Source of the DNA: Terriglobia bacterium | GTDB lineage: Bacteria; Acidobacteriota; Terriglobia; UBA7540 | DNA: 35,930 bases | Assembly: GCA_020072925.1 (NCBI GenBank) | Contig: JAIQGA010000134.1 | Coordinates: 1-35,930 of the forward strand | Direction: 5' to 3' | Shown here: positions 2,789-30,368 of the stretch, piece after piece | How the letters are laid out: each line of letters starts with the position of its first letter | Position numbering within the stretch: the stretch's first letter is position 1 | Notes under the pieces: generated by a model | What the model was told of the DNA's origin: nothing | Seen by the model: the letters and a program-made list of their open reading frames with translations, nothing else | Database searches by the model: none | Position numbers and translations under genes: made by a program

Positions 2789-3295
2789 ATGACGAGAATT
2801 GCCGACAAGATCCTGCCGCTCGAACGCGCGTACGAAGTGGTAGATGAATTGAAGCGGCAGGGAAAGCGTGTCGTTTTCACCAATGGCTGCTTCGATGTGC
2901 TGCATCCGGGCCACACGCGCTGCCTGGCGGAAGCGCGAAAGCTCGGCGACCTCCTGATCGTGGCGATGAACAGTGACCGCAGCGTGCGCGCGCTGAAAGG
3001 CGAGGACCGCCCACTTCAGCCCGAGGACGAACGCGCGGAAATCCTGGCGGCGCTGGAAGCCGTGGATTACGTGACCATCTTCGACGACCTCACTCCCCAG
3101 GCGGTGATCGCGCGCATGCTGCCGCAGGTCCTGGTCAAGGGTGGCGACTGGGGGCACAACGAAATCGTGGGTCGCGCCGAGGTCGAGGCCGCCGGAGGAG
3201 GCGTCGTGTCCATCCCCGTCGTGCACGGCTACTCGACTTCGGCAATCATTGAAGCAGCCTCTGAGATTGCACCGAGCGACAAGAAGATCGGGTGA
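2789..3295 (+). CDS. rfaE2: D-glycero-beta-D-manno-heptose 1-phosphate adenylyltransferase (HldE C-domain)
   Basis: Nucleotidyltransferase that activates heptose-1-phosphate with ATP to give ADP-heptose for the LPS inner core. The 168-residue protein is the stand-alone adenylyltransferase half of HldE; no kinase domain is fused. The nucleotide-binding motif [10 protein letters not shown] is at residues 33-42, with the HxGH core. VKGGDW and [11 protein letters not shown] follow, and the family ending YSTSAIIE is present. The start is supported by GGAGG at 2780-2784, four bases before ATG. The product is cytosolic. The partner kinase, isomerase and phosphatase genes are not in this window. The 3' end runs straight into an octamer-word repeat element. 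Confidence 0.95.
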
Positions 3296-3425
3296 TCGGG
3301 CCATCGGGTGATTGAGCGATTGAGTGATTGGGCGATTGAAAAAGCAAGCAAGGAATTCACCGCTCAGGCTTCGCAGCCGCGGACTCTTCAATCACGCAAT
3401 CACCCGATCATGCAATCACCCAATC
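3290..3425. repeat. Octamer-word element (GTGATTGA type), inverted arms
   Basis: The left arm, about 3290-3341, reads as variants of an eight-base word (GTGATTGA, GCGATTGA, GTGATTGG). The right arm, about 3388-3425, carries the complement (CAATCACG, CAATCACC), so the two ends are inverted copies. It begins at the stop codon of rfaE2 and ends about 30 bases before mfd. Another element with the same word lies after 20211. Confidence 0.75.
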
Positions 3426-3454: not shown

Positions 3455-6400
3455 ATGCCGGACATCCGCCCACTGATTCAACCTCTCCTTGATCACGCGG
3501 CGTTCCGCGCGGTCCGGGAGGCGCTCCGCGAGGGAGCTGCCCGGGAGTCGAGGACCCTCACCCTCTCCGGCCTGACGCGCCCTGCGAAGGCGCTGGTCGT
3601 CGCCGGGCTGGCGCATCAGGTCGGGCGCCCGGCCATCGTGCTCACCTCCGATAACGAGGCGGCGGAGCAGCTTCGCGCCAGCACCGCCACCTTTCTGGAA
3701 TGGCTTGAGCCGGGCGCGGGCGCACGAGTTCAGGCGTTGCCGGCATTCGATTGTTCGCCGTATGAAGGGCGTTCGCCGCACGCCGAGGTCCAGGAACAGC
3801 GCGCGGTGGCGCTCTGGAGCGTGGGCTGCGCCCGGACCCGCGCGCTCTATGTCCCGCTGCCCGCGGCCATGGGACGCTTCCGCGCGCGCGAGTATTACGG
3901 CTCACTCGCGCTGGAGCTCAGGGTCGGCGACGAATTGAACCTTGATGATCTGCTCGAGCACCTGCGCACCGTGGGCTATGAGTCCGGCGAACCGGTTGCG
4001 GAAGTCGGTCAGTTCTCGGTGCGCGGCGGGATCGTGGACGTTTTCCCTCCCGAAGCTTCGTGTCCCTTCCGCCTGGAGTTCTTTGGCGATCAGGTTGAAT
4101 CGGTGCGCGAGTTCGATCCGGCAACGCAGCGTTCTCGCCAGGCCGCACCCTCGGCATTGCTCCTGCCGCTCGCGGAAACACAGCGCTCAGGCCAATTCTT
4201 CGCCACGCTGGTGAAAGTTCTGCGGCAGCGTGCGCCCCACCGCCGTGCCGCGGCCGGCGCCACCGCGCGAGACTCCGAAGCCGAGCCGGAATGGGCGCCG
4301 GAATATTCCGGTCCCTTCCCGGGGTGGGAGTTTTTTGCCCCGCTGGTCGAACCGCAGCCCAATTCCCTGCTGGCACTTTTTCGGAGCCCGGTCCTTGTCT
4401 GGGACGAACCCTTGGAGCGGCAAGCGCAATTAAAGGAGACGCTTGAAGGCCTGGCCGCCGGCTTCGATGAGGGGCGCGACATCGTGCCGCCCCGGCCCAA
4501 GCCGGAAGAGATGTTTCTGAGCGAACAGGAATTCCTTCACGCCTGCGAGTCAGCGCCACAGCTTTTCTTGAAGGAGCTCGCCGTCACCGAGAGCAAGGAC
4601 GCCTTTCGAACCTCCATAGGAGTTCCTGCCGTCCCAAACCAGGTGAGTGCCGCGGAGCCCGTCGGCGAATTAGAAGAGAAGACCCCCAGCACCCAACACC
4701 CAGCACCCAGCACCCTTGATTCAGTCCCCAGCACCCAGCACCCAGCACCCAGCACCCCTCAGTCAGCCCCCAGCCCCGAACTCGTCCTCCTGACGCAACC
4801 TACTCCGAAATTTCAAGGCGGCGTGAAGGCCCTGGCGGAAGATTTGCGCGCGCGGCTCGAGCAAGGGATGGCCGTGGTGTTCGTGATGCCGACGGCCGGG
4901 AAGATCGATCGCCTGCGCGAAATCCTCACCGAATATCAACTGCCCTTCGGGAGCGTCGAGCCGACGCCCATCGCCATAGATAGCGCCGGCGCAGAGAAGA
5001 GCGGTCCAATCAGGGGAATCTGGATCGCGCGCGGTGAAATCGCCGAAGGGGTTGTCATTCCTGAGCTGGGTCTGACTTGGCTCGCCGACCGCGACCTGTT
5101 CGGCGGATTCGACTGGGGCGCGACGCGGCGGCGCGAGCGCGCGGGCATCTCGAGCTTCATTTCCGACCTCAGCGACCTCAAGGTCGGCGATTACGTCGTG
5201 CACGTGGACCACGGAATCGCCCTCTACCGTGGCCTGCGCCAACTTTCCGTCGGGGGCGCCACGCGCGACTTCATGCTTTTGACGTACCAGGAAGACGCCA
5301 AGCTTTATGTGCCGCTGGAGCGCCTGGACCTGGTCGAGAGATACCGCTCGGGCGGTGATGGCGCCAAGCCGGCGCTCGATCGCCTGGGCGGAGCCACCTG
5401 GGAGCGCACAAAGACCCGCGTCAAGCGCGCGCTGCGCGACATGGCCCAGGAACTTCTGCAGCTTTACGCGGAGCGCAAGATGCGCGGCGGCGTCCCTGCG
5501 AGCGCCGACACGCCATGGCAGAAAGAATTCGAAGACGCTTTTGAATTCGAGGAAACCCCCGACCAGTTGACGGCGGTCGCGGACATCAAGCGCGACCTGG
5601 AAAGCCCGGACCCGATGGACCGCCTGCTGTGCGGCGACGTGGGCTACGGCAAAACCGAACTCGCGATGCGCGCGGCCTTCAAGGTGGTCCAGGACGGCCG
5701 GCAGGTGGCGCTGCTCGCTCCGACCACCGTCCTGGCCTTCCAGCACTACACGACCTTCCGCCAGCGGATGTCGGCGTTCCCCATTCGCGTCGAGATGCTC
5801 AGCCGCTTCCGCAGCGCCGCGGAGCAGAAGAAGGTCGTCGCCGACGCCGAGGCCGGTCGGGTGGACATTCTTATCGGCACGCACCGCCTGCTCTCGAAGG
5901 ACGTGCGCTTTCGCGAACTGGGACTTCTGGTCGTGGATGAAGAACAGCGGTTTGGGGTGGCGGCAAAAGAAAGGCTGAAAAAGCTTCGCGCGCAGGTCGA
6001 CGTTCTGACGATGTCTGCCACGCCCATTCCGCGCACCCTGCACATGTCGCTGGGTGGCTTGCGCGACTTTTCGGTGATCGAGACGCCGCCGCGCGGCCGC
6101 CTGGCCATTCAGACTGTTGTCGCGCCTTTCGGCCAGGCATTGATCCAGTCGGCAATTCTCCAGGAGATGCAGCGCCAGGGCCAGGTCTTTTTCGTGCACA
6201 ATCGGGTGGAATCGATTTTCACCATTGCGGCGCTTTTGCAGCGCCTGGTGCCCACGGCGCGCATCGGCGTCGCGCATGGCCAAATGGGTGAAAAAGACCT
6301 CGAGCGGGTAATGCTGAAGTTCATGCAGGGCGAATACGAAGTCCTCGCCGCCACGGCGCTCATCGAAAACGGGCTGGACATTCCGCGCGCCAACACCATG

Positions 6401-10007: not shown

Positions 10008-10190
10008 CAGTACACAGTTGACCGTCAACGGTCCAAACCACGAGAATTCCCAGGATCGGATTATTGGCAACAGGAAGAATCCTTAACAAGCCCCGCGCGG
10101 ATACTTTCGGTGCGCCTGTTCCCCTTCGGCGCGGTCCATCACCCAGAAAGAGATTCAACTGTCAACTGTCGACCGTTAACTGTAAACTAT
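10003..10190. repeat. GTTGACA heptamer-word element, inverted arms
   Basis: The left arm (about 10003-10035) contains GTTGACAGTACACAGTTGACCGTC. The right arm (about 10158-10190) contains AACTGTC twice, then GACCGTT and AACTGTA, i.e. the complement of the same seven-base word. About 120 bases of non-repetitive DNA lie between them. The right arm ends five bases before the GTG start of the dus gene. Confidence 0.75.
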
Positions 10191-11601: not shown

Positions 11602-11666
11602 AGGGTAAGGGATGAAGGACAAGGGTTGAGGGTTGAGGGTCGAGGGTCGAGGGTTGAGGGTTGAGA
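11602..11666. repeat. GGGTTGA heptamer tandem repeat
   Basis: Six head-to-tail seven-base units at 11623-11664: GGGTTGA twice, GGGTCGA twice, GGGTTGA twice. They are preceded by degenerate copies from 11602. It sits in the short convergent gap between the PilZ gene and rsmI and ends 22 bases before the rsmI stop. No inverted partner arm is visible. Confidence 0.9.
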
Positions 11667-18410: not shown

Positions 18411-19355
18411 TCACGCGCCCTCGGGCAGGAATTTGCCTACCAGGCCCTTGACGTCGACTTTCTCCTTGGGTCCAATGATGACACTACCCGGTCTCGGCTC
18501 GACCACTTCCCCGCCCTTCATGAAGGTGACGCGGTACAACTCGGCGAAGAAATAGCGCTGCGCTGCGCCCCCCTGGCCTCCCAGGACTTCCGAGCCGCGC
18601 CGCACGTTGTTCATCAGCCGGTGAGGCTGCAAGAGGTGATAAGGATTGCGCTTCACTTCGCCGCCGTGCTCGGCGGTAGCCATCAACTGGAGAGCGAGGG
18701 TTTCCGCGCTCACGCCGACCATCAGGTTGGGCTGCTTCAATTCGGCCCAGAATTCCGTTTCGATCAGAGGAAAGAGCCCGCGGTCGTGGCGCTCGAGGTA
18801 GGCGCCCAGCGCGTCGGCCACCAGGAAGTGCGTGCCAATGTGCGTGGTATTGAAATCCTCCCCGTGCGGAGCCAGCACGACGTCCGGGATCTCGCGCTCG
18901 AAAATTTCGGTGAGGGTTTCGACCTTCGCCGCCCACTCCTCACGGTGGTCCCGGCGATTGGCCAGGTTGACGCGGTCAAGGCCCACGGGTTGGTCGGGAA
19001 CGATGAGCTCGAAGCCCAGCGCGCGGCACGCCGATTCGAGCTCGCCCAGCCGCCGCGCCTTCTGGCTGATGTTACTGCCCAGCGTGATCGCGCAGTTCAC
19101 CACGCGCGCGCCAGCTTCCTGCCGGAAACGCAGCGCCAGCGCGCCAATCAGCGATTCGTCGTCGGGATGCGGTGAACACATCACGACGGTTGCCGGCGCG
19201 GCTTTGCGCGCCGAGACTCGGGGGGCCACCAGTGGCTTCCGCGAAGGTCCAATCGGAATGGACTTTCCTGCCTCGATTGCCTTGACCGTCGTTTGCACGT
19301 ACCGAAGCCAGCGCTTGCGAGCGGTTTCCCACGCGGCCGATTTATTCTTAGACAC
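18411..19355 (-). CDS. PIG-L/LmbE family N-acetyl-sugar deacetylase
   Basis: Zn-dependent deacetylase fold of the PIG-L/MshB/LmbE group, acting on N-acetylglucosamine-containing substrates; the exact substrate is unknown. The 314-residue protein starts with GTG at 19355, seven bases after GGAGG. The metal and catalytic motif is CSPHPDDESLIGAL (residues about 60-73). The second metal-binding element is HGEDFNTTHIGTHFLV (near 165-180). The N-terminal 50 residues are basic, and the C-terminal third (after about 230) is a family-variable extension. No signal peptide is visible, so it is probably cytosolic. Its stop overlaps the alternative start of the membrane-protein gene. Confidence 0.88.
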   Translation of the reverse strand: MSKNKSAAWETARKRWLRYVQTTVKAIEAGKSIPIGPSRKPLVAPRVSARKAAPATVVMCSPHPDDESLIGALALRFRQEAGARVVNCAITLGSNISQKARRLGELESACRALGFELIVPDQPVGLDRVNLANRRDHREEWAAKVETLTEIFEREIPDVVLAPHGEDFNTTHIGTHFLVADALGAYLERHDRGLFPLIETEFWAELKQPNLMVGVSAETLALQLMATAEHGGEVKRNPYHLLQPHRLMNNVRRGSEVLGGQGGAAQRYFFAELYRVTFMKGGEVVEPRPGSVIIGPKEKVDVKGLVGKFLPEGA

Positions 19356-19551: not shown

Positions 19552-20211
19552 ATGAAAAAGAATATGCTCCTGGTGCTTGCGGCACTGGCATTCCTCACAG
19601 TCCCTTCGGCGCTGTTGGGGCAGGATTGGATCCAGCTCTTTAACGGCAAAGACCTGACGGGGTGGAAGCATGTAGGCCCCGGAAACATGACCGTCGAAGA
19701 CGGGCTGATTCACACTCACGGGGGAATGGGCCTGCTCTATTGGAACGCGGGCAAGGTCGGAAACTGCGTCATCCGGGTGGTTTACAAGATGCGCGATTTC
19801 AACGACAACTCGGGAGTCTTCATCCGCATTCCCGTGGAGCCGCGTGAGGAGTGGATGCCGGTCAATTATGGCTATGAGGTGCAGATTGATAATCACCCGG
19901 AGACCTCCAACGAAGACGAGTATCACGTGACGGGGACGCTCTATTCGTTGACCAAGCCGCTGGCCATGCCGGGCAAGCCCGGCCCGGAATGGAATACCAT
20001 GGAAATCACGCTTGACGGGCCGCACACGGTCGTCGTTCTGAATAGCGTGAAGGTGACGGATTATACAGAAGGCCAACCGATGCCGCCGCGCAAATTCGAT
20101 TTCGAGCCGCAGCGCGGCCCTCGGCCCACCCTCGGCTACTTCGGCCTGCAAAATCACAGCGACAAGGACATTGTGTTTTTCAAGGAAGTCGCGTTCAGGC
20201 CCTTGCATTGA
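19552..20211 (+). CDS. Exported DUF1080 protein (3-keto-disaccharide hydrolase-like)
   Basis: A 219-residue protein with a Sec signal (MKKNMLLVLAALAFLTVP, cleavage near LLGQ) followed at once by the DUF1080 hallmark WIQLFNGKDLTGWK. The rest is the concanavalin-like beta-sandwich pattern: NMTVEDGLIHTHGGMGLLYW, FNDNSGVFIRIP, GYEVQIDNHP, TLYSL, WNTMEITLDGPHTVVVLN and LGYFGLQNHSDKDIVFFKEVAF. Family members have been reported to hydrolyse 3-keto-glycosides or to hydrate 2-hydroxy-3-keto-glycals. GAGGTG at 19540-19545 supports the start. The next two genes are the expected partners for such chemistry, so a periplasmic step in sugar breakdown is the favoured role. Confidence 0.9.
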   Translation: MKKNMLLVLAALAFLTVPSALLGQDWIQLFNGKDLTGWKHVGPGNMTVEDGLIHTHGGMGLLYWNAGKVGNCVIRVVYKMRDFNDNSGVFIRIPVEPREEWMPVNYGYEVQIDNHPETSNEDEYHVTGTLYSLTKPLAMPGKPGPEWNTMEITLDGPHTVVVLNSVKVTDYTEGQPMPPRKFDFEPQRGPRPTLGYFGLQNHSDKDIVFFKEVAFRPLH

Positions 20212-20349
20212 GTGATTGCGTGATTTGGTGATTGGGTGATTGAGTCATTTACTCATTGAGTCATTTGGCCATTGAACCATTGAATCCATGAAGCCAGAAT
20301 GCGCAATTCGGTTTCTTCAGTGATGAAATGAATCAATGGCGCAATGGTT
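20212..20349. repeat. Octamer-word element (GTGATTGG/GTCATTTG type), inverted arms
   Basis: It starts at the base after the DUF1080 stop. The left arm, about 20212-20288, is a run of eight-base words (GTGATTGC, GTGATTTG, GTGATTGG, GTGATTGA, GTCATTTA, CTCATTGA, GTCATTTG, GCCATTGA, ACCATTGA). The right arm (about 20318-20349) carries the complement, AATGAATCAATGGCGCAATGG. It separates the first two genes of the putative 3-keto-sugar operon. An in-frame ATG at 20328 falls inside the right arm. Confidence 0.8.
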
Positions 20350-20363
20350 TTGGGGGGTGCAAC

Positions 20364-21266
20364 ATGCCGCAAGCAATTGATCGTCGCGATTTTCTCAAGA
20401 CCGCCGGCGTGGCCGTGGCAGGCTCGGTGCAAGTAAGCTTGGCCAACTCCCTGCCGCAAGAAGCGAAGAAGGCGGAACCCCAGCCGCGATTATTCTCCGG
20501 CTGCTGCGCCTATTCTTACGGCAAATACCTCAAGAGCGGCCAGATGACCATGGAGGATTTCATCCTCAAAGCCGTGGAATTGGGCATTGACGGCGTGGAT
20601 ATCACGACATACTGGCTGAAGTCGACCCAGCCTGCGTACCTGGCCGGCCTGCGTCACTTCGCTTTCAAACATGGAGTTCCTTTCTCCGGCGCGGCCATTG
20701 GCAGCGACATGTGCCAGCCCGACCCTGCGAAGCGGGCGTCTGAACTCACCAACATCAAAAAGTGGATCGATGCCACCGAACTCCTCGGCCCCTCGCACCT
20801 CCGCGTTTTTGGCGGCGAGCTTCCGCCGGGCGCGACGGAAGCGCAGGGCATCGGCTGGGTGGTGGAGACCATGAAGCCTGCGTGCGACTACGCCGCCCGG
20901 AAAGGCATCACCCTGGGGATCGAAGATCACGGCGGCATCACGTCCAAGGCTTCGACCATCCTCGAGATTCTTCGCCGCGTGAATTCTCCCTACGCGGGAA
21001 TTAACCTCGATATCACCAATTTTACCGAGAACGAGTACGCGCAGATCGATGCGTGCATTCCGTACGCGACGCACACCCACATCCGCGAGGCCTTCGGCGC
21101 ATCGAAGGAACTCGTTGACCTCGAGCGCGTCTGGAGCATGTTCGCCAAAGGCGGTTACAAGGGATACATGTCAGCGGAGTACGAAGGCGAGGAAGACGCG
21201 ATGACCGCCGTTCCCAAGCTTCTCGGAAAGATCAAGACTCTCTGCAAGATATATTCAAGTGTGTAA
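20364..21266 (+). CDS. Tat-exported sugar isomerase/epimerase-like TIM-barrel protein
   Basis: A 300-residue protein of the xylose-isomerase-like/AP-endonuclease-2 TIM-barrel superfamily. The twin-arginine signal is at the N-terminus (DRRDFLKTAGVAVAG). The barrel has the usual metal ligands: Glu in GIEDHGG, Asp in INLDITNF, His in YATHTHIREAF and Glu in YMSAEYEGEED. ATG at 20364 follows a G-rich ribosome site and gives the signal peptide a standard length; the upstream ATG at 20328 lies within a repeat arm. Homologous folds include 3-keto-glycoside 1,2-lyases and epimerases. Folding in the cytosol before Tat export fits a metalloenzyme. It is 16 bases upstream of the oxidoreductase gene. Confidence 0.87.
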   Translation: MPQAIDRRDFLKTAGVAVAGSVQVSLANSLPQEAKKAEPQPRLFSGCCAYSYGKYLKSGQMTMEDFILKAVELGIDGVDITTYWLKSTQPAYLAGLRHFAFKHGVPFSGAAIGSDMCQPDPAKRASELTNIKKWIDATELLGPSHLRVFGGELPPGATEAQGIGWVVETMKPACDYAARKGITLGIEDHGGITSKASTILEILRRVNSPYAGINLDITNFTENEYAQIDACIPYATHTHIREAFGASKELVDLERVWSMFAKGGYKGYMSAEYEGEEDAMTAVPKLLGKIKTLCKIYSSV

Positions 21267-21282
21267 GCCCTGGAGGTGCATC

Positions 21283-22515
21283 ATGTCGAGTCGCCGCAAG
21301 TTCATGGGGCAAGTTCTGGGCGGAAGCGCCGGCCTGGCCGTGTCGGGCTGGCTTGCGCCCGCCAGGAGTCTGGGCGCCAACGACCGCGTGCGCTTTGGAT
21401 TGATCGGCGCGGGAGGCCGCGGGCAGGAAATCTTCAAGGCGGCGCTGCGCGCGCCCAACACCGAAGCGGTGGCGGTCGCCGACGTCTATACGCGCCGGCT
21501 CGATGAAGTCAAGGCCCTGGTTCCCGCGATCAAAACCTACGGGGATTTTCGCCGCCTGCTCGACGATAAAAGCATCGACGCGGTCCTCATCGCCACGCCG
21601 CAGCACCAGCACGCCCTGAATTTCGTTCCGGCCATTCAGGCCGGAAAGGATATTTACCAGGAAAAGACCATGGCCTTCAATCCCGACCATGCCAAGCGCA
21701 TGCGCCGCGCCTTTCAGGGCTCCGGCCGCGTCGTGCAGGTGGGGATTCAGTCGACCACCGGCGCAGGGTTCGAGAAGGCGCGCGACCTGCTGGCGCGCGA
21801 GAAGATGGGCACCATCACAGCCATCCACACGCATCATTTCCGAAACGCGCCCTACGGCGGCTGGCTGCGCGAAATCCCTCCCGATTGCGACGCGCAGCAC
21901 GTGGCGTGGAAGGCCTTCGAGGGCGAGGCCGCGCCGCACCCCTTCGACCCCCAGCGGTACTTGAACTGGCGATTCTACTGGGACTATTCGGGTGGAAACG
22001 TTTTCGAGAACATGGTGCACCAGGTGGGCTTCTGGTACAAGGCGCTGGGCCTGAACATCCCCCAAGCAGCGACCATGAAGGGTGAGAATTATCTCTCGCC
22101 GAAGATGCAGGTCCCCGACACCATGAATGTCACGATGGAGCAGCGCGAGAGAATTCTCTTCACTTGGAATTCCATGTTTGGGAACGATTACTACGGCGAA
22201 GGTGAAGATCTCGTGCTCGGCAACCAGGGCACGATCCTGTGCAAGGAATTGAGCGCTCTGCGCTACGTGCCGCAGGGCGCCAAGGCGGAAGAGGCCGCGG
22301 CCAAGCCCTCCGGCGCTGCACCCGACATCGTGGGCGGCGGGGATACCACCGATGACCACATGCGAAATTTCTTCGATTGCGTGCGCAGCCGCAAGGAACC
22401 CAATGGCTCGTTCGAAATCGGCTTCCGCTCCGCCATCGCCTGCCAGATGGCGATCACCTCGTATCGGCGCAGGCGCACCGTGCGCTGGGACGCGGAGAAG
22501 GAGGAGATTGTTTAG
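21283..22515 (+). CDS. Tat-exported Gfo/Idh/MocA family oxidoreductase
   Basis: A 410-residue NAD(P)-dependent sugar oxidoreductase. ATG at 21283 is placed by GGAGGTG at 21272-21278. A twin-arginine signal (SRRKFMGQVLGGSAG) precedes the Rossmann fold, whose loop is FGLIGAGGRGQEIF. ATPQHQHAL and YQEKTMAF correspond to the usual NAD-contact and EKP region, with Thr replacing Pro. The C-terminal sheet domain includes GGNVFENMVHQVGFWYKALG. A Tat signal on a nucleotide-dependent enzyme implies export with bound cofactor, as in Zymomonas glucose-fructose oxidoreductase. With its neighbours it could oxidise the C3 hydroxyl of a glycoside. Confidence 0.9.
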   Translation: MSSRRKFMGQVLGGSAGLAVSGWLAPARSLGANDRVRFGLIGAGGRGQEIFKAALRAPNTEAVAVADVYTRRLDEVKALVPAIKTYGDFRRLLDDKSIDAVLIATPQHQHALNFVPAIQAGKDIYQEKTMAFNPDHAKRMRRAFQGSGRVVQVGIQSTTGAGFEKARDLLAREKMGTITAIHTHHFRNAPYGGWLREIPPDCDAQHVAWKAFEGEAAPHPFDPQRYLNWRFYWDYSGGNVFENMVHQVGFWYKALGLNIPQAATMKGENYLSPKMQVPDTMNVTMEQRERILFTWNSMFGNDYYGEGEDLVLGNQGTILCKELSALRYVPQGAKAEEAAAKPSGAAPDIVGGGDTTDDHMRNFFDCVRSRKEPNGSFEIGFRSAIACQMAITSYRRRRTVRWDAEKEEIV

Positions 22516-22557
22516 AAAAAGGAGTCAGAAGACAGGAGTCAGAAGTCAGAAGAAAAA
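22512..22557. repeat. GTCAGAA heptamer-word repeat
   Basis: GTCAGAA units and a variant (GACAGGA) run head to tail directly after the oxidoreductase stop, ending in an A-rich tract. I see no inverted partner arm in the 117-base convergent gap. Confidence 0.7.
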
Positions 22558-22632: not shown

Positions 22633-23877
22633 TTAATAGACCACAACATCACCTTCCTTAAGTCCGGAAGTGATTTCGGTATTCACGCCGTCCTGCGCGC
22701 CCACCTGCACGGGCCGTGTCTTGACGGCCTCTGCCGTTTTCACGCGCACCAGGGGCGCTCCATCATTGAACTCCACGGCGCGCTGCGGGACGATGAGCAC
22801 GTTCTTCTTCTTCGCCAACTGAACATACACATCCACGCGCAGCCCGACCCTGAGGGGCGAGCCGGGATCGAGTTCCACGAAGCTCTCCAGGACGTCCGTA
22901 TCCACTTTGTCGGTGGGATTATCCGTTTGAATTTTCTTTTTTCCCAACCCACCGCTGATGCGCGTCACCGTACCGTGAAATACCTTTCCGCGAAAGGCGT
23001 CGCAGCGGACCTCCGCTTGCTGGCCGAGGCGGATTTTGCCGATGTCGGTCTCGTCAATCTCCGCTCTCACCATAAGGCGAGTCGTATCGGAGACTGAAAC
23101 AATGGGCTGATAAAGCGACTCATAAGAAATCGACTCGCCGGGATTCATGTAACGCTTTACGACGACGCCATCCACCGGTGAGCGCACGAAGGTGTTGTCG
23201 TAGTTATCCTGGGCCTGTGCGAGCTGCGCGCGGGCCAATTCCACGCTGGCCTTCGCGGCGGCAACGTCCTCGAAGCGCGGCGGAGCCATGATGAGCTTAT
23301 AATTCTGGCGGGCAGTTTCGAGTCTTGCCTCGCTCATCTTCCAGTCGCGCTCCGCCTGGTCGAGCACGGAGCGCGAAACGATGCCGCCTTCCTTGAAGAG
23401 CCGCCGCTGGCGCTCGTGAGTCTGCTGGGCGTTATCGGCGGCGGCCTGAGCTTCCTGCATTTGCGCGCGCGAGGCATCGCGCTCCTCCGGCCGCGCGCCG
23501 TTCTGAAGCTTTTCCAGGGCGGCCTGTTCCCGCGCCACATTTGCGCGCGCCTGCTCCACCTGCGCGGCGAGGTCGTCGTTCTCGAGGACGGCCACCACCT
23601 CTCCCTTACGGGCGGGGTCGCCGTCGTTCACGCGCACTTCCTTCAGCCGTCCCACCACGCGCGAAGCCAGCTTGATTTCCTGCGACGTGGCGCCTTCCAC
23701 ACGCCCACGCGCCGCCAGGTGCCAGTCGATTGTTCCCCGGCGCACCCGGAATTCATGGGAAGCCCCGCCGGCGTTGCGCTGCGAGGAAGCAAAGAAAATC
23801 AACAACGGCGCCGCCAGCACGACGCCGACGCCCGCGAACAGATATAAATGCTTGTGATTGCGCGCCATTTTACTCAT
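22633..23877 (-). CDS. Periplasmic adaptor (HlyD/DevB-like) of an ABC exporter
   Basis: Membrane-fusion protein that links an inner-membrane ABC transporter to an outer-membrane channel. It has 414 residues: a cytosolic lead, one membrane anchor (about 10-30), a barrel-sandwich start with the lipoyl-like segment GRLKEVRVNDGDPARKGEVVAVLEN (near 75-100), a long alpha-helical hairpin rich in Ala/Gln/Glu (about 105-215), the second lipoyl half TFVRSPVDGVVVKRYMNPGES, a beta-barrel and a C-terminal VGAQDGVNTEITSGLKEGDVVV. Its start overlaps the ATPase stop (ATGA at 23874-23877), so the operon order is permease, ATPase, adaptor. It is intact, unlike the ATPase gene. No TolC-like gene is in the window. 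Confidence 0.9.
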   Translation of the reverse strand: MSKMARNHKHLYLFAGVGVVLAAPLLIFFASSQRNAGGASHEFRVRRGTIDWHLAARGRVEGATSQEIKLASRVVGRLKEVRVNDGDPARKGEVVAVLENDDLAAQVEQARANVAREQAALEKLQNGARPEERDASRAQMQEAQAAADNAQQTHERQRRLFKEGGIVSRSVLDQAERDWKMSEARLETARQNYKLIMAPPRFEDVAAAKASVELARAQLAQAQDNYDNTFVRSPVDGVVVKRYMNPGESISYESLYQPIVSVSDTTRLMVRAEIDETDIGKIRLGQQAEVRCDAFRGKVFHGTVTRISGGLGKKKIQTDNPTDKVDTDVLESFVELDPGSPLRVGLRVDVYVQLAKKKNVLIVPQRAVEFNDGAPLVRVKTAEAVKTRPVQVGAQDGVNTEITSGLKEGDVVVY

Positions 23878-24493
23878 TCAACCAGTTGACCATCTTCGAA
23901 ATGCAAAATCCGGTCCGCGAGACTCGCCACGCGCGAATCGTGGCTGACCATGAAAACCAGGCGGCCCTCGTTGTGGGCGAGGTCGTGCAGGACCTCGGTG
24001 ATCAGCCGGCCGGTCTTCGAGTCGAGCATCCCCGTGGGTTCATCCGCCAGGATGATCGGGGGATTCCCCGCCAGGGCGCGCGCCACTGCCACGCGCTGCT
24101 TTTCTCCGCCGCTCAAGTCTTCGGGCAAGTGATCGAGGCGCTTTGCCAGACCGAGGCGAGCGAGTAACTCTCGGCCTGCTCGACCGCCTCTTCTCCCCGA
24201 ACGCCCTTGATGTTCAGCGTCGCCTCGACGTTCTCGCGCGGCAGGCGCGCCTCGTCCAGCGAACTCACGTCTTCATCAAAAAGGGAAACGGAACCAGTGG
24301 TCGGTTTCAGCAAGCATCCCATGAGCATCAGCAACGTGGTCTTCCCGCTCCCCGAAGGCCCCATCAGCATAAAGAACTTCCCCGCTTCCAAGTCGAGGGA
24401 GACATCGCGTACCGCTTCTACGGCGGTTTCCCCGGCGCCGTAAGTCTTGCTGACGTTCTCGAGCCTGACGACGGTCTGTGCAACAGTGTCCAT
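23874..24493 (-). pseudogene. Broken ABC exporter ATPase (DevA/LolD-like)
   Basis: The ATPase of the exporter, with two lesions. The first frame from ATG at 24493 has VVRLENVSKTYG and the Walker A loop MGPSGSGKTTLL. The residues after LDEARLPR jump directly to ENVEATLNIKG: about 23 residues holding the Q-loop (the usual IGFVFQ...NLLP stretch) are absent, with the junction near 24232-24243. Second, after EEAVEQAE a single missing base near 24167-24172 shifts the frame, and that frame stops soon after. The other frame carries LLARLGL and then the signature LSGGEKQR, Walker B PIILADEPTG, the D-loop and the H-loop MVSHD, to the stop overlapping the adaptor start. Both changes together argue for a decayed gene rather than one sequencing error, though an assembly fault is not excluded. 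Confidence 0.82.
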
Positions 24494-24504
24494 GTCAATG
24501 AGAG

Positions 24505-24630
24505 CGGTCCGTCGTCCGTGGTCCGTTGTCAGTTGTCCGTTGCGCTCCTGGCTGGACAACCAGGTTCATTAACAGACGACCGAGGGCAGTTCCGGGCAAC
24601 TGACCACGGACAACGGACTAAGGACAACTA
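24505..24630. repeat. GTCCGTT heptamer-word element, inverted arms
   Basis: Left arm 24505-24541: GTCCGTC, GTCCGTG, GTCCGTT, GTCAGTT, GTCCGTT. Right arm about 24595-24630 carries the complement (AACTGACCACGGACAACGGAC). It lies between the permease stop and the ATPase start, within the exporter operon. The right arm touches the permease stop codon. Confidence 0.85.
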
Positions 24631-26737: not shown

Positions 26738-27739
26738 TCAAGCCGGGGGAGGCGGTCCGGTGGACTCGCGGATAACCAGTTCAGGGTCGATGAGAAACTC
26801 CCGGCCCTGAACTTCCTCCTCCTCGCGCGAAGGAACCAGCGCCTCGAAAGAAAGGTGGCCAATCTTCTCACGAGGGATGTTGACCGTCGTTAAGGGCGGG
26901 AAGGCATACTCGGAAAGGCTGATGTTGTCATAGCCAGTGACGGAGACATCGCGCGGCACCTCCAGGCCCTGCTCGCGGAGTGCCGCGAGCACCCCCAGCG
27001 CCATATAATCGTTCACACAGATAATGGCCGTGGGCTTGAAGCCCGAAGCCAGCAGCGTGCGGGTGGCCTGCTTGCCCCCCGCGGGGCCGTCGCGGTCCGC
27101 AACGGTGGTCGATTCCACCTGCCCCGCATAACGCTTCATCGTCTCCACAAACGAGACCTTCCGGTCCAGCAGGGGTTCCAGGCCGGTGTGATGCCCGACG
27201 AACGCCATCCGCCGATGACCGAGGGAGTGGAGGTACTCGACGGTTTTCTGAATGCCCTTTTGATAGTTGACCTTAATGTTCGAGATATTACGCGCCGGTG
27301 TCCCGACGTCGTAGAACACGATGGGAAGGTCGGACTCCACCAGTTCTTGAATCAGTGAGGGCTCCATCTCGGAGACAATCACCGCCAGGCCGGCCACGCG
27401 GCGCCCCATCATCAGGTGCACGCTGCTCACCAGCCGTCGAGGCAGGTAATCGGTGTTGGCCACGACCACTTCGTACCCCTGGCGGTGGGCATCCGATTCC
27501 AGGGTGCGGAAGATGTCCAGGAAAAAGGGGTTTTCGAGATTCGAGACAATCATCCCCAGGCTGCGGCTCTTCCCTCCCGCGAGCGTCCGCGCATGAAGGT
27601 TGGGATGATACTTCAGTTCCTTAATGGCCTTCAGCACCCGCGCGCGGGTGGCGTTCTTGACCGGCCCCGCCTTATTCAGTACACGGGATACCGTGGCGAT
27701 GGAAACCCTGGCGCGTCTTGCGACATCTTCAAGTTTCAT
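26738..27739 (-). CDS. LacI/GalR-family transcriptional regulator
   Basis: A 333-residue sugar-responsive DNA-binding regulator. The N-terminal helix-turn-helix and hinge are KLEDVARRARVSIATVSRVLN and KELKYHPNLHARTLAGGKS (residues 2-58). The periplasmic-binding-protein-like effector domain follows: LGMIVSNLENPFFLDIFRTLE, LGHRRMAFVGHH, ICVNDYMALGVLAAL and VSVTGYDNISLSEYAFPPLTTV. The C-terminus is proline-rich. It has its own promoter with a symmetrical AAGCGCTT operator just downstream, so it probably represses itself. Candidate targets are the sugar-oxidoreductase genes nearby, but I see no second copy of the operator in their upstream regions. Confidence 0.94.
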   Translation of the reverse strand: MKLEDVARRARVSIATVSRVLNKAGPVKNATRARVLKAIKELKYHPNLHARTLAGGKSRSLGMIVSNLENPFFLDIFRTLESDAHRQGYEVVVANTDYLPRRLVSSVHLMMGRRVAGLAVIVSEMEPSLIQELVESDLPIVFYDVGTPARNISNIKVNYQKGIQKTVEYLHSLGHRRMAFVGHHTGLEPLLDRKVSFVETMKRYAGQVESTTVADRDGPAGGKQATRTLLASGFKPTAIICVNDYMALGVLAALREQGLEVPRDVSVTGYDNISLSEYAFPPLTTVNIPREKIGHLSFEALVPSREEEEVQGREFLIDPELVIRESTGPPPPA

Positions 27740-27941: not shown

Positions 27942-28985
27942 TTACGGGCCGACCTCGACGAGGGTGCCCGGAGCTGCGTGGTTAACGGCGGATCGCAATA
28001 CGGTACGCCGGTAATGGCCCGGCGAATTGCCTGGCAGGTAGAAGATGGCGGTTAGATCGGGGTGAGCCGCCAGGACCCGGCGGCTTCCCTCTACGCCCAG
28101 CACGAAAAGTTTGGATAACGCATCGCTCTCGGTTGTAGAGGGCGCGAGTACCGTGGTAGAAAGCATGTTCTCCACCGGCCAACCCGTCCGCGGGTCCATG
28201 ATGTGGCAGTACGTTTTCCCGCCTATGTCGAAGAATTTCTCATAGCTGCCGGAAGTCGAAAGTGAGTAATTCCGAAGGATGAGTGTGTCCGCGGGTTTAC
28301 CAGCCTGATAAGGGTCTCGGACCGTCACGTGCCAGCCGCGCTCCCCGGGCGGGGCGCCCAGCGCATAGATGCTGCTGGTACCGCCGGAGACCAGGGCGCT
28401 CGCGATGCCGTTGGAGCGAAGGACCTCGACCGCCTGGTCTACCGCGTAACCCTTGGCAATTCCACCCAGGTCCAGTTCAATCCCGCTTTTATCAAATCGA
28501 ATCGTGCGCGCCGCGGGGTCGAGCTTAATGTGCTGATAACCGACGCGCTTCAGGACGTCGGTGATTTCCGCCGGCGAGGGCAGAAGACCGCGCCCCCGGA
28601 AGAATCCCCAGTGCTTCATGAGCGGTCCCACGGTGATATCGAAAGCGCCGTCGGTCTCGCGACTGTACTGAACTGATTGCTCGAGTAAACGGAAAAGGTG
28701 CGGCTCGACGAGCACCGCATGGCTCGCGGCCTCGCGGTTGATCGCGGAGAGTTCGCTCTCCGGCTTGTAGTTGCTCATCTGCGCGTCAACCCGGTCCAAT
28801 TCCTGGAACACCTGCTCGACCACTTCCCCGAGGAAATTCCGGTCGCGCCCGTAAGCCACGACGGTGAAGACCGTTCCCATGGCCTCGTGTGAAGCCTCGT
28901 AGCGCACGAGTGACTGGGCAGCCTCCCCCGGCGCGGCGAGGAGGATTAGGGCCAGGAGCGGCCGCAAAAAGAATTGCTGGATCAT
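27942..28985 (-). CDS. apbE: FAD:protein FMN transferase (ApbE family)
   Basis: Exported enzyme that attaches FMN covalently to Thr/Ser of target flavoproteins, using FAD and Mg2+. ATG at 28985 gives 347 residues with a signal peptide (FFLRPLLALILLAAPGEA); a GTG at 29024 would add 13 residues. Family motifs in order: ASHEAMGTVFTVVAYG, MSNYKPESELSAINR, DITVGPLMKHWGF, ELDLGGIAKGYAVDQA, ALVSGGTSSIYALG, YCHIMDPRTGWPV and SDALSKLFVLG. No Nqr/Rnf subunit or other obvious acceptor flavoprotein is nearby. The neighbours are a Tat-exported oxidoreductase (upstream, 81 bases) and a LacI regulator (downstream). Confidence 0.93.
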   Translation of the reverse strand: MIQQFFLRPLLALILLAAPGEAAQSLVRYEASHEAMGTVFTVVAYGRDRNFLGEVVEQVFQELDRVDAQMSNYKPESELSAINREAASHAVLVEPHLFRLLEQSVQYSRETDGAFDITVGPLMKHWGFFRGRGLLPSPAEITDVLKRVGYQHIKLDPAARTIRFDKSGIELDLGGIAKGYAVDQAVEVLRSNGIASALVSGGTSSIYALGAPPGERGWHVTVRDPYQAGKPADTLILRNYSLSTSGSYEKFFDIGGKTYCHIMDPRTGWPVENMLSTTVLAPSTTESDALSKLFVLGVEGSRRVLAAHPDLTAIFYLPGNSPGHYRRTVLRSAVNHAAPGTLVEVGP

Positions 28986-29066
28986 CCGTTTGGTATGCCC
29001 CGCAGACAATGCACCGGAATGCACCGGCGAGAAGGTTCAACGGTCATTCAAATCGCTTCGATGGCG

Positions 29067-30368
29067 CTAGGCGGGCTTGGTCGGCCAGAGAACTTTCTGC
29101 CCCGTCTCAACTGCGCGATTGGCGTAGATGACCGCCAGCGCGTCGGCCACCCCCATTTCGAGCGGCGCCGCCACCGGTTTCCCATCGCGAATGCTGGCGA
29201 AGAAATTCGTCTGCTCGCTCCACCAGGGATCGTGCTGCTCCTCATAGTTGAAGATCCCCATCGACGCCAGCCAGCGCCGGGCGTAACGGACTTCGCGTTC
29301 GAGGAACGCGCCCTCTCCGTTGCCGTGCTCGGGGAAAATGGGAATCCCTTCCTGCGTGGCCTGCTTGGTGACGGTCGCGCCCGCCCACCAGTTTTCCTTG
29401 GCGCCGGCCTGAGTGACCTTCGCCGCGTGCTCGCGAAAATACATCCCCTTACCGATAGTGATGATGAGCGTTCCCCCATCGCCCATAATCTGCTCATCGA
29501 AATCATAGTGCTGGTTGTAGAGGATGGAACTATACAGGAGCTTGCGCCCGCCGGGGTATTCGAAGATGGCTTGCACGTTATCGCAGACCTCGCGGCCGTC
29601 CTGCCAGTAATCGATGCCACCCGTGGCCACCACCGAAAGCGGTTCGGCGCCAAACGCCCAGTTGGTCACATCGATCTGGTGGGAAGCCAGTTCCGCCATC
29701 AGGCCGCCCGAATACTCCTTATACATCCGCCAGTTGATCAGGCGCTCGAACTTGGGGTCCGGCACGGGCCGTCGCCAGTTGTTGTTGCGATGCCATTGCG
29801 CCCGGACAAACATTACCTTGCCGAGCGCGCCCTTGCGGATCATCTCAATCGCCACCTGGTATAGCACGCTCGAGCGGCGCTGCAATCCGACTTGCAGCAC
29901 CTGTTTCGGGTGCTCGGCCGCCACCTTGCGGATCTGGTCCGCCTCCTCTTCTTTGAAGAACATGCTCTTCTCGACGAAAACGTGTTTGCCGGCGTCGAGA
30001 GCGTCGATCACCATCCTTGCGTGCAGGTTCAGCGGGGTGACAACGTAGATCGCGTCCAGGTCCTTCCGCTCGAGCATTTTCCGGTAGTCTTCGTAAGTGT
30101 CCGGGTTTGTGCCGATGGTCTCCACGCCCTTCTTGAGGTTGGGCGGGTAGATGTCGCAAGTGGCTACACAGCGAGCCTCCGGAATCGTGGTGGCGAACTT
30201 CAGCAGCGTGCAACCCTCCGTCCCGGTCCCAATCATGCCGAACCGCACCACCTGGCTCGGACTGGGCGCAGCCAGAATCGCGGGTGCGCCGGGCAAAGCG
30301 GAGGCCGCCGCCACGACTGCGGCGGTCTTCAGAAAATCGCGACGAGTAACGTCTTGCTCTTTCTCCAT
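29067..30368 (-). CDS. Second Tat-exported Gfo/Idh/MocA oxidoreductase
   Basis: A 433-residue sugar oxidoreductase with a twin-arginine signal (TRRDFLKTAAVVAAASALPGAPA). The Rossmann loop is FGMIGTGTEGCTLL, followed by TPLNLHARMVIDAL and VFVEKSMFF, where EKS replaces the usual EKP. The substrate domain contains QRRSSVLYQ, LINWRMYKEYSGGLMAELASHQIDVTNW and a C-terminal DALAVIYANRAVETGQ. AAGGAGC about nine bases before the ATG supports the start. It is only distantly similar to the enzyme at 21283, so the two probably act on different sugars or steps. It heads a minus-strand group with apbE. Confidence 0.92.
   Translation of the reverse strand: MEKEQDVTRRDFLKTAAVVAAASALPGAPAILAAPSPSQVVRFGMIGTGTEGCTLLKFATTIPEARCVATCDIYPPNLKKGVETIGTNPDTYEDYRKMLERKDLDAIYVVTPLNLHARMVIDALDAGKHVFVEKSMFFKEEEADQIRKVAAEHPKQVLQVGLQRRSSVLYQVAIEMIRKGALGKVMFVRAQWHRNNNWRRPVPDPKFERLINWRMYKEYSGGLMAELASHQIDVTNWAFGAEPLSVVATGGIDYWQDGREVCDNVQAIFEYPGGRKLLYSSILYNQHYDFDEQIMGDGGTLIITIGKGMYFREHAAKVTQAGAKENWWAGATVTKQATQEGIPIFPEHGNGEGAFLEREVRYARRWLASMGIFNYEEQHDPWWSEQTNFFASIRDGKPVAAPLEMGVADALAVIYANRAVETGQKVLWPTKPA

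Follow-up and report, generated by a model that had tools for sequence, protein, structure and literature searches.

The cluster BT2156-BT2160 of Bacteroides thetaiotaomicron encodes exported enzymes of the DUF1080 and Gfo/Idh/MocA families for 3-keto-glycosides, with BT2156 presumably being their triosephosphate isomerase (TIM)-barrel partner. In Agrobacterium tumefaciens, O-beta-glucosides are handled by AtOGE, a stand-alone, single-subunit TIM-barrel eliminase (PMC10628242), and AtHYD, with oxidation carried out by a flavoenzyme. C-glycoside eliminases (DgpB-C/PuCGE and AgCGD2; PMC8563793) are known together with the oxidoreductase DgpA, and the levoglucosan pathway of Bacillus smithii (LgdA-LgdB1-LgdB2-LgdC) follows a four-step logic with sugar-isomerase-like and Gfo/Idh/MocA enzymes (PMC7676230). 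The pathway roles of the Bacteroides and Agrobacterium enzymes are taken here from PDB titles and the other papers cited. The stretch described here (the window) comprises the 35,930 nucleotides (nt) of contig JAIQGA010000134.1 from a Terriglobia bacterium (assembly GCA_020072925.1). At positions 19552-22515 it carries genes for a DUF1080 protein, a xylose-isomerase-like TIM barrel (hereafter TIM) and a Gfo/Idh/MocA oxidoreductase (hereafter Gfo). Judged from their sequences and models, these three are predicted to form a small exported 3-keto-glycoside pathway working by oxidation, elimination and hydration instead of hydrolysis, with a probability of about 0.7. Step by step, its logic is the one seen in the pathways for levoglucosan (PMC7676230) and C-glycosides (PMC8563793) and in Agrobacterium (PMC10628242), and the trio is a credible new example of a pathway known from gut Bacteroides and Agrobacterium, not a new type of system.

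Open reading frames (ORFs) and Pfam agree on the three genes, which lie on the forward strand in the order given by an earlier sequence-only reading of this DNA. The DUF1080 gene (19552-20211) codes for a protein of 219 amino acids belonging to PF06439 (3keto-disac_hyd; 139.5 bits, cut-off 26.8), TIM (20364-21266, the longest ORF running from 20328) to PF01261 (97.2 bits, cut-off 31.1) and Gfo (21283-22515, ORF from 21259) to PF01408 (66 bits, cut-off 24). That reading had also assigned one Sec and two twin-arginine translocation (Tat) signals, and all three were recovered. The N-terminus of DUF1080, MKKNMLLVLAALAFLTVPSALLGQ, is a Sec-type leader as judged by eye. From the ATG at 20364, TIM begins with MPQAIDRRDFLKTAG..., a Tat signal scoring 19.7 bits against TIGR01409 (cut-off 16.7) and 21.2 bits against Pfam TAT_signal, slightly under the cut-off of 22.7. 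This start is preferred because nearly all orthologs keep the methionine found at position 13 of the long ORF. Gfo begins with MSSRRKFMGQ..., the twin arginine being invariant in 11 orthologs; it is kept in TIM orthologs as well, and Tat export of both proteins is predicted from these conserved signals. TIM and Gfo are separated by 16 nt, and the DUF1080 stop codon lies 116 nt from the long TIM ORF or 152 nt from the preferred ATG. A terminator scan showed no terminator-like sites on the forward strand between the trio genes, and the promoter and terminator scan gave nothing over chance level.

TIM residues are numbered from the long ORF start at 20328, and its profile (A1) and residue conservation are based on 29 ortholog sequences. 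A search of the PDB with this profile retrieved 4ovx and Art22, followed by the C-glycoside eliminase alpha-subunits DgpC (7bvr, 7exz), 7xrf and 9m3b. The nearest solved structure, 4ovx, is to our knowledge an uncharacterised protein. In fold comparison (VIA), the AlphaFold model of TIM (predicted local distance difference test score, pLDDT, 89) matched 4ovx with Z 32.2, Art22 with Z 30.5 and 7exz with Z 27.1 (root-mean-square deviation, rmsd, 2.7; 237 aligned residues). TIM E199, H201, D228, H251, E284 and E286 align with AgCGD2 E147, H149, D179, H269, E305 and E307, which comprise the metal ligands, the catalytic histidine and the glutamate assisting it (PMC8563793). Glu199, Asp228, His251 and Glu284 are the metal-ligand equivalents; His201, two residues past the first ligand, is equivalent to the base histidine and Glu286 to the assisting glutamate. 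Among the orthologs H201, D228 and E286 are invariant, while E199, H251 and E284 are at least 90% conserved. His201 also occupies the position of PuCGE H143 and AtOGE H134, the latter being essential, as its alanine variant is inactive (PMC10628242). The Art22 isomerase, in contrast, has E-N-Y where TIM has E-x-H, placing a tyrosine at the catalytic-histidine position. All published alpha-subunit active-site residues, on which the sequence-only reading had staked its lyase assignment, are kept with the exception of one metal-ligand lysine, which is an arginine here. TIM is predicted to be a Mn-dependent 3-keto-glycoside 1,2-lyase (eliminase); if this is right, it belongs to an eliminase subfamily without a characterised member, and classical glycoside-hydrolase annotation would miss it.

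In the Gfo/Idh/MocA family, the GxGxxG motif binds the nucleotide and the lysine of the EK motif is catalytic. The GAGGRG motif, D67 and E127-K128 of Gfo are conserved in the orthologs that make up its profile (A3). Against the PDB, this profile placed 8tdf/8tdh at the top, followed by 3ec7 and DgpA (7xr9), with 94 bits for the leading structures versus 53 for inositol dehydrogenases. The deposition series that 8tdf and 8tdh share with BT2157 entries, together with the NCBIfam match, suggests that they are BT2158-type enzymes. Gfo is predicted to be a glycoside C3 dehydrogenase, possibly acting as a 3-keto-sugar reductase as well.

The DUF1080 model (pLDDT 83.6) has a concanavalin-like fold and superimposes on BT2157 (8rr2_A; VIA) with Z 21.5 and rmsd 2.4 over 190 aligned residues. 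Matches at Z ~21.5-22 comprise 8rr2 and 9fbe, titled in the PDB as 3-keto-glycoside eliminase/hydratase, and 8tda and 8v31, titled as hydratases. His202 (in LQNH), invariant across 11 orthologs (A2), aligns with His275 of BT2157 (in MQDH), using a residue offset of 25 deduced from the residue ranges of the structural alignment. A His275Asn variant of a DUF1080-type enzyme, probably BT2157 itself, is deficient in hydration (PMC13273386). The window protein is predicted to be a 3-keto-glycoside eliminase and/or a 2-hydroxy-3-keto-glycal hydratase.

Taken together, the pathway would start in the periplasm, where Gfo, with a bound nicotinamide cofactor, would oxidise a glycoside at its C3 hydroxyl. 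TIM, with a divalent metal and His201 as base, would then remove H2 and expel the aglycone by 1,2-elimination, yielding a 2-hydroxy-3-keto-glycal, which DUF1080 would hydrate to the 3-keto-sugar; DUF1080 may itself eliminate some substrates. The 3-keto-sugar could be reduced by the same or a second exported Gfo, or be taken up. C3 oxidation, 1,2-elimination and hydration, as proposed in the sequence-only reading, stand as the best-supported account of the protein families, export signals, gene order, residues and neighbourhood, while the catalytic steps themselves, their order, the metal, the bound cofactor and the substrate are what we infer from these. No gene for a C-glycoside eliminase beta-subunit was found among the neighbouring genes, which makes O-glycosides likelier substrates than C-glycosides; a genome search with the beta-subunit family PF19906 gave zero matches, its controls being silent too.

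Conservation was surveyed in 61 genomes, in which 35 loci with TIM orthologs, the window included, were examined using genes called by codon usage. TIM orthologs were found throughout the family and in a small number of further families within the class. The named relatives from the contig collection are Terriglobia and group 13 Acidobacteria metagenome-assembled genomes, which indirectly agrees with the phylum assumed in the sequence-only reading. A DUF1080 and/or Gfo ortholog adjoins TIM on the same strand in 18 of the 35 loci; among these, the DUF1080 match in L059 is limited to its end, and the Gfo of L060 lies 1.6 kb downstream. Since the genomes span several million bases, such co-directional adjacency is not expected by chance. 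The complete trio is present in four genomes (the window genome, G007, G008 and G020), and three others (G009, G023 and G029) possess two TIM paralogs, one adjoining DUF1080 and the other adjoining Gfo. The joint conservation on which the sequence-only reading had also depended was found, although the full trio is confined to these four of the 61 genomes. Two close relatives (L050 and L051) encode tandem DUF1080 genes; the window DUF1080 groups with the first, and the second is missing from the window. Where TIM stands alone in relatives, the genes around it (aminotransferases, GH28, a response regulator and peptidases) showed no common theme. DUF1080 copies 75-82% identical to that of the window occur without TIM nearby at G053:C10:14412-15035, G002:C84 and G016:C311, one of them in another family of the class, suggesting that the DUF1080 gene may move on its own.

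Compared with the described systems, the trio shares with BT2156-BT2160 the DUF1080 and Gfo families, close solved-structure matches and exported enzymes, but its sequences are distant, its DUF1080 is shorter, and it includes a single Gfo, a second lying 6.5 kb away on the opposite strand. With the C-glycoside eliminases it has in common the alpha-subunit metal site and catalytic histidine, and DgpA is among the best Gfo matches; unlike them, it has no beta-subunit gene among the neighbouring genes examined and arginine for the lysine ligand, and its barrel of ~260 residues leaves no space for the lid insertion. AtOGE, likewise a TIM eliminase with no second subunit, has the same catalytic histidine (PMC10628242), whereas neither DUF1080 nor a Tat-exported Gfo has been described in its operon. 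The levoglucosan pathway differs in its anhydrosugar substrate and the addition of soluble NAD, and DUF1080 is unmentioned there (PMC7676230). The sequence-only reading had considered a periplasmic version notable, a claim that is weakened because this location is not new: BT2158 has already been described as a glycoside 3-dehydrogenase of the periplasm (PMC11300592), and for Caulobacter a 3'-ketolactose route in the same compartment, with a DUF1080-family 3'-ketolactose hydrolase, has been proposed (PMC9007349). If the present prediction is right, non-hydrolytic glycoside breakdown would extend to widespread, poorly cultured soil bacteria whose carbon use is mostly unknown, with a specific enzyme set outside gut Bacteroides that includes the TIM-eliminase subfamily nearest 4ovx.

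Several observations weigh against the proposed glycoside pathway. Identities of the trio to characterised enzymes are ~20-25%, and no sugar transporter or hydrolase marks a substrate. The best NCBIfam model for Gfo, BT_2158_fam (NF058561), scores 105 bits versus a cut-off of 750, which puts Gfo outside that equivalog. The xylose-isomerase-like fold also includes epimerases, isomerases and dehydratases that share the metal ligands, and sugar epimerases come next in the TIM fold ranking (Z ~26.6), so that fold alone is indecisive for TIM function. Arg253 of TIM (Arg or Lys in relatives) replaces Lys271, the fifth metal ligand of AgCGD2; this lysine is not counted as defining because in PuCGD water coordinates the metal in its place (PMC8563793) and the published account of AtOGE lacks it. 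An exported pathway for cyclitols or free sugars, pairing an inositol-like dehydrogenase with an IolE-like dehydratase or ketose 3-epimerase and leaving DUF1080 as a lectin-like binder, would fit the match of Gfo to IolG models (78.9 bits), the D-tagatose/D-allulose 3-epimerases and IolI among the TIM fold neighbours (Z ~26) and the concanavalin-like fold of DUF1080. It is quite improbable, however, given that the TIM ligand set with its E-x-H histidine is the eliminase pattern and not that of the Art22 isomerase, that the A3 search ranks BT2158-type structures above inositol dehydrogenases, and that those DUF1080 proteins whose function is known act as catalysts, with the hydration histidine kept here. 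A somewhat unlikely alternative departs from the favoured explanation in the role of TIM only: DUF1080 would both eliminate and hydrate, as the eliminase/hydratase titles of the BT2157 entries 8rr2 and 9fbe suggest, and TIM would epimerise the 3-keto-sugar at C4, like Escherichia coli YcjR (6wn6, Z 24.9), or perform hydration, like AtHYD (8ro4, Z 25.6), both being among its fold neighbours. The TIM profile nevertheless reaches eliminase alpha-subunits, with AtHYD and YcjR absent at E 0.01, and the eliminase histidine is conserved. Within the favoured 3-keto-glycoside pathway, the self-recycling cofactor that the sequence-only reading had taken Tat export to imply is likewise weakened, to a conjecture. 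An unlikely extension would be a redox-neutral, self-contained periplasmic machine of uncultured soil Acidobacteriota, in which NAD bound to Gfo regains its oxidised form through reduction of the 3-keto-sugar product, the second Gfo and an ApbE protein (27942-30368) serve as a reductase or electron-transport link, and TIM represents the subfamily without a characterised member.

The remaining points against the pathway concern gene linkage: complete trios are few, about half of the TIM loci have neither partner, and several genomes carry DUF1080 or Gfo elsewhere, away from TIM. The three could accordingly be mere neighbours, each drawn from a large paralogous exported family and forming no single functional unit. 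The rarity of the full trio, the 116-152-nt gap with a repeat that parts DUF1080 from TIM, and the high family counts in the window genome (~40 matches for the BT2158 model, of which 17 outscore the window Gfo, and 10 DUF1080 matches), by which the trio is one of many, all favour such a view. It is very doubtful in light of the co-directional DUF1080-TIM and TIM-Gfo pairs that recur in different genera and of the three genomes that split two TIM paralogs between DUF1080 and Gfo.

Most of the BT2158-like Gfo matches in the window genome (G000) begin at the first position of the model, and one of them, C410:27947-29362, is much nearer BT2158 than the window Gfo (376 versus 105 bits). Several further DUF1080-Gfo pairs accompany this large expansion, for which L003, L004 and L006 are additional example loci.

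The octamer-word element that the sequence-only reading had placed between the first two genes was identified as a repeat of 8-bp period with TGATTGGG-like words at 20206-20289, without strand assignment. It occupies the place where the two close relatives hold the second DUF1080 gene, and the word TGATTGGGTGATTG, allowing up to three mismatches, matches 16 times in the window versus 2.3 expected. Its inclusion in the operon was rejected because similar 7-8-bp tandem repeats are widespread in the window (3286-3425, 4685-4781, 10155-10188, 11608-11665, 22523-22552 and 24507-24628, in addition to the one above). The word differs from repeat to repeat, and the repeats are mostly intergenic.

Upstream, a divergent gene (18411-19355, reverse strand) encodes a PIG-L (LmbE-type) de-N-acetylase family protein (Pfam PIG-L, 43 bits). 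Orthologs 60-64% identical to it lie upstream of DUF1080 or TIM in L051, L054, L055, L057 and L058, making it a conserved neighbour and possibly an associated gene. Downstream, three genes on the reverse strand may be connected with the cluster. A LacI-family sugar-responsive regulator (26738-27739, by family match) is a candidate regulator, with a 72% identical ortholog directly 3' of Gfo in L064 and L065 and an 84% ortholog in L051. It is followed by an ApbE family protein (FAD:protein FMN transferase-like; 27942-29024; Pfam ApbE, 278.6 bits) and the second Gfo/Idh/MocA oxidoreductase (29067-30368), which is predicted to be Tat-exported and has the glucuronide-3-dehydrogenase 8tdi as its top solved match. 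Orthologs of this oxidoreductase (69-71%) adjoin TIM in L055 and L057, with another close by in L053, and all three loci keep the pair with ApbE; the enzyme may serve as a partner dehydrogenase or reductase. An ABC ATPase gene (23874-24559, reverse strand), flanked by the HlyD and FtsX/MacB genes, is broken into two ORFs of 148 and 84 amino acids by an apparent internal deletion and frameshift. It is either a pseudogene or an assembly error, the gene being intact in L050, L051 and L053.

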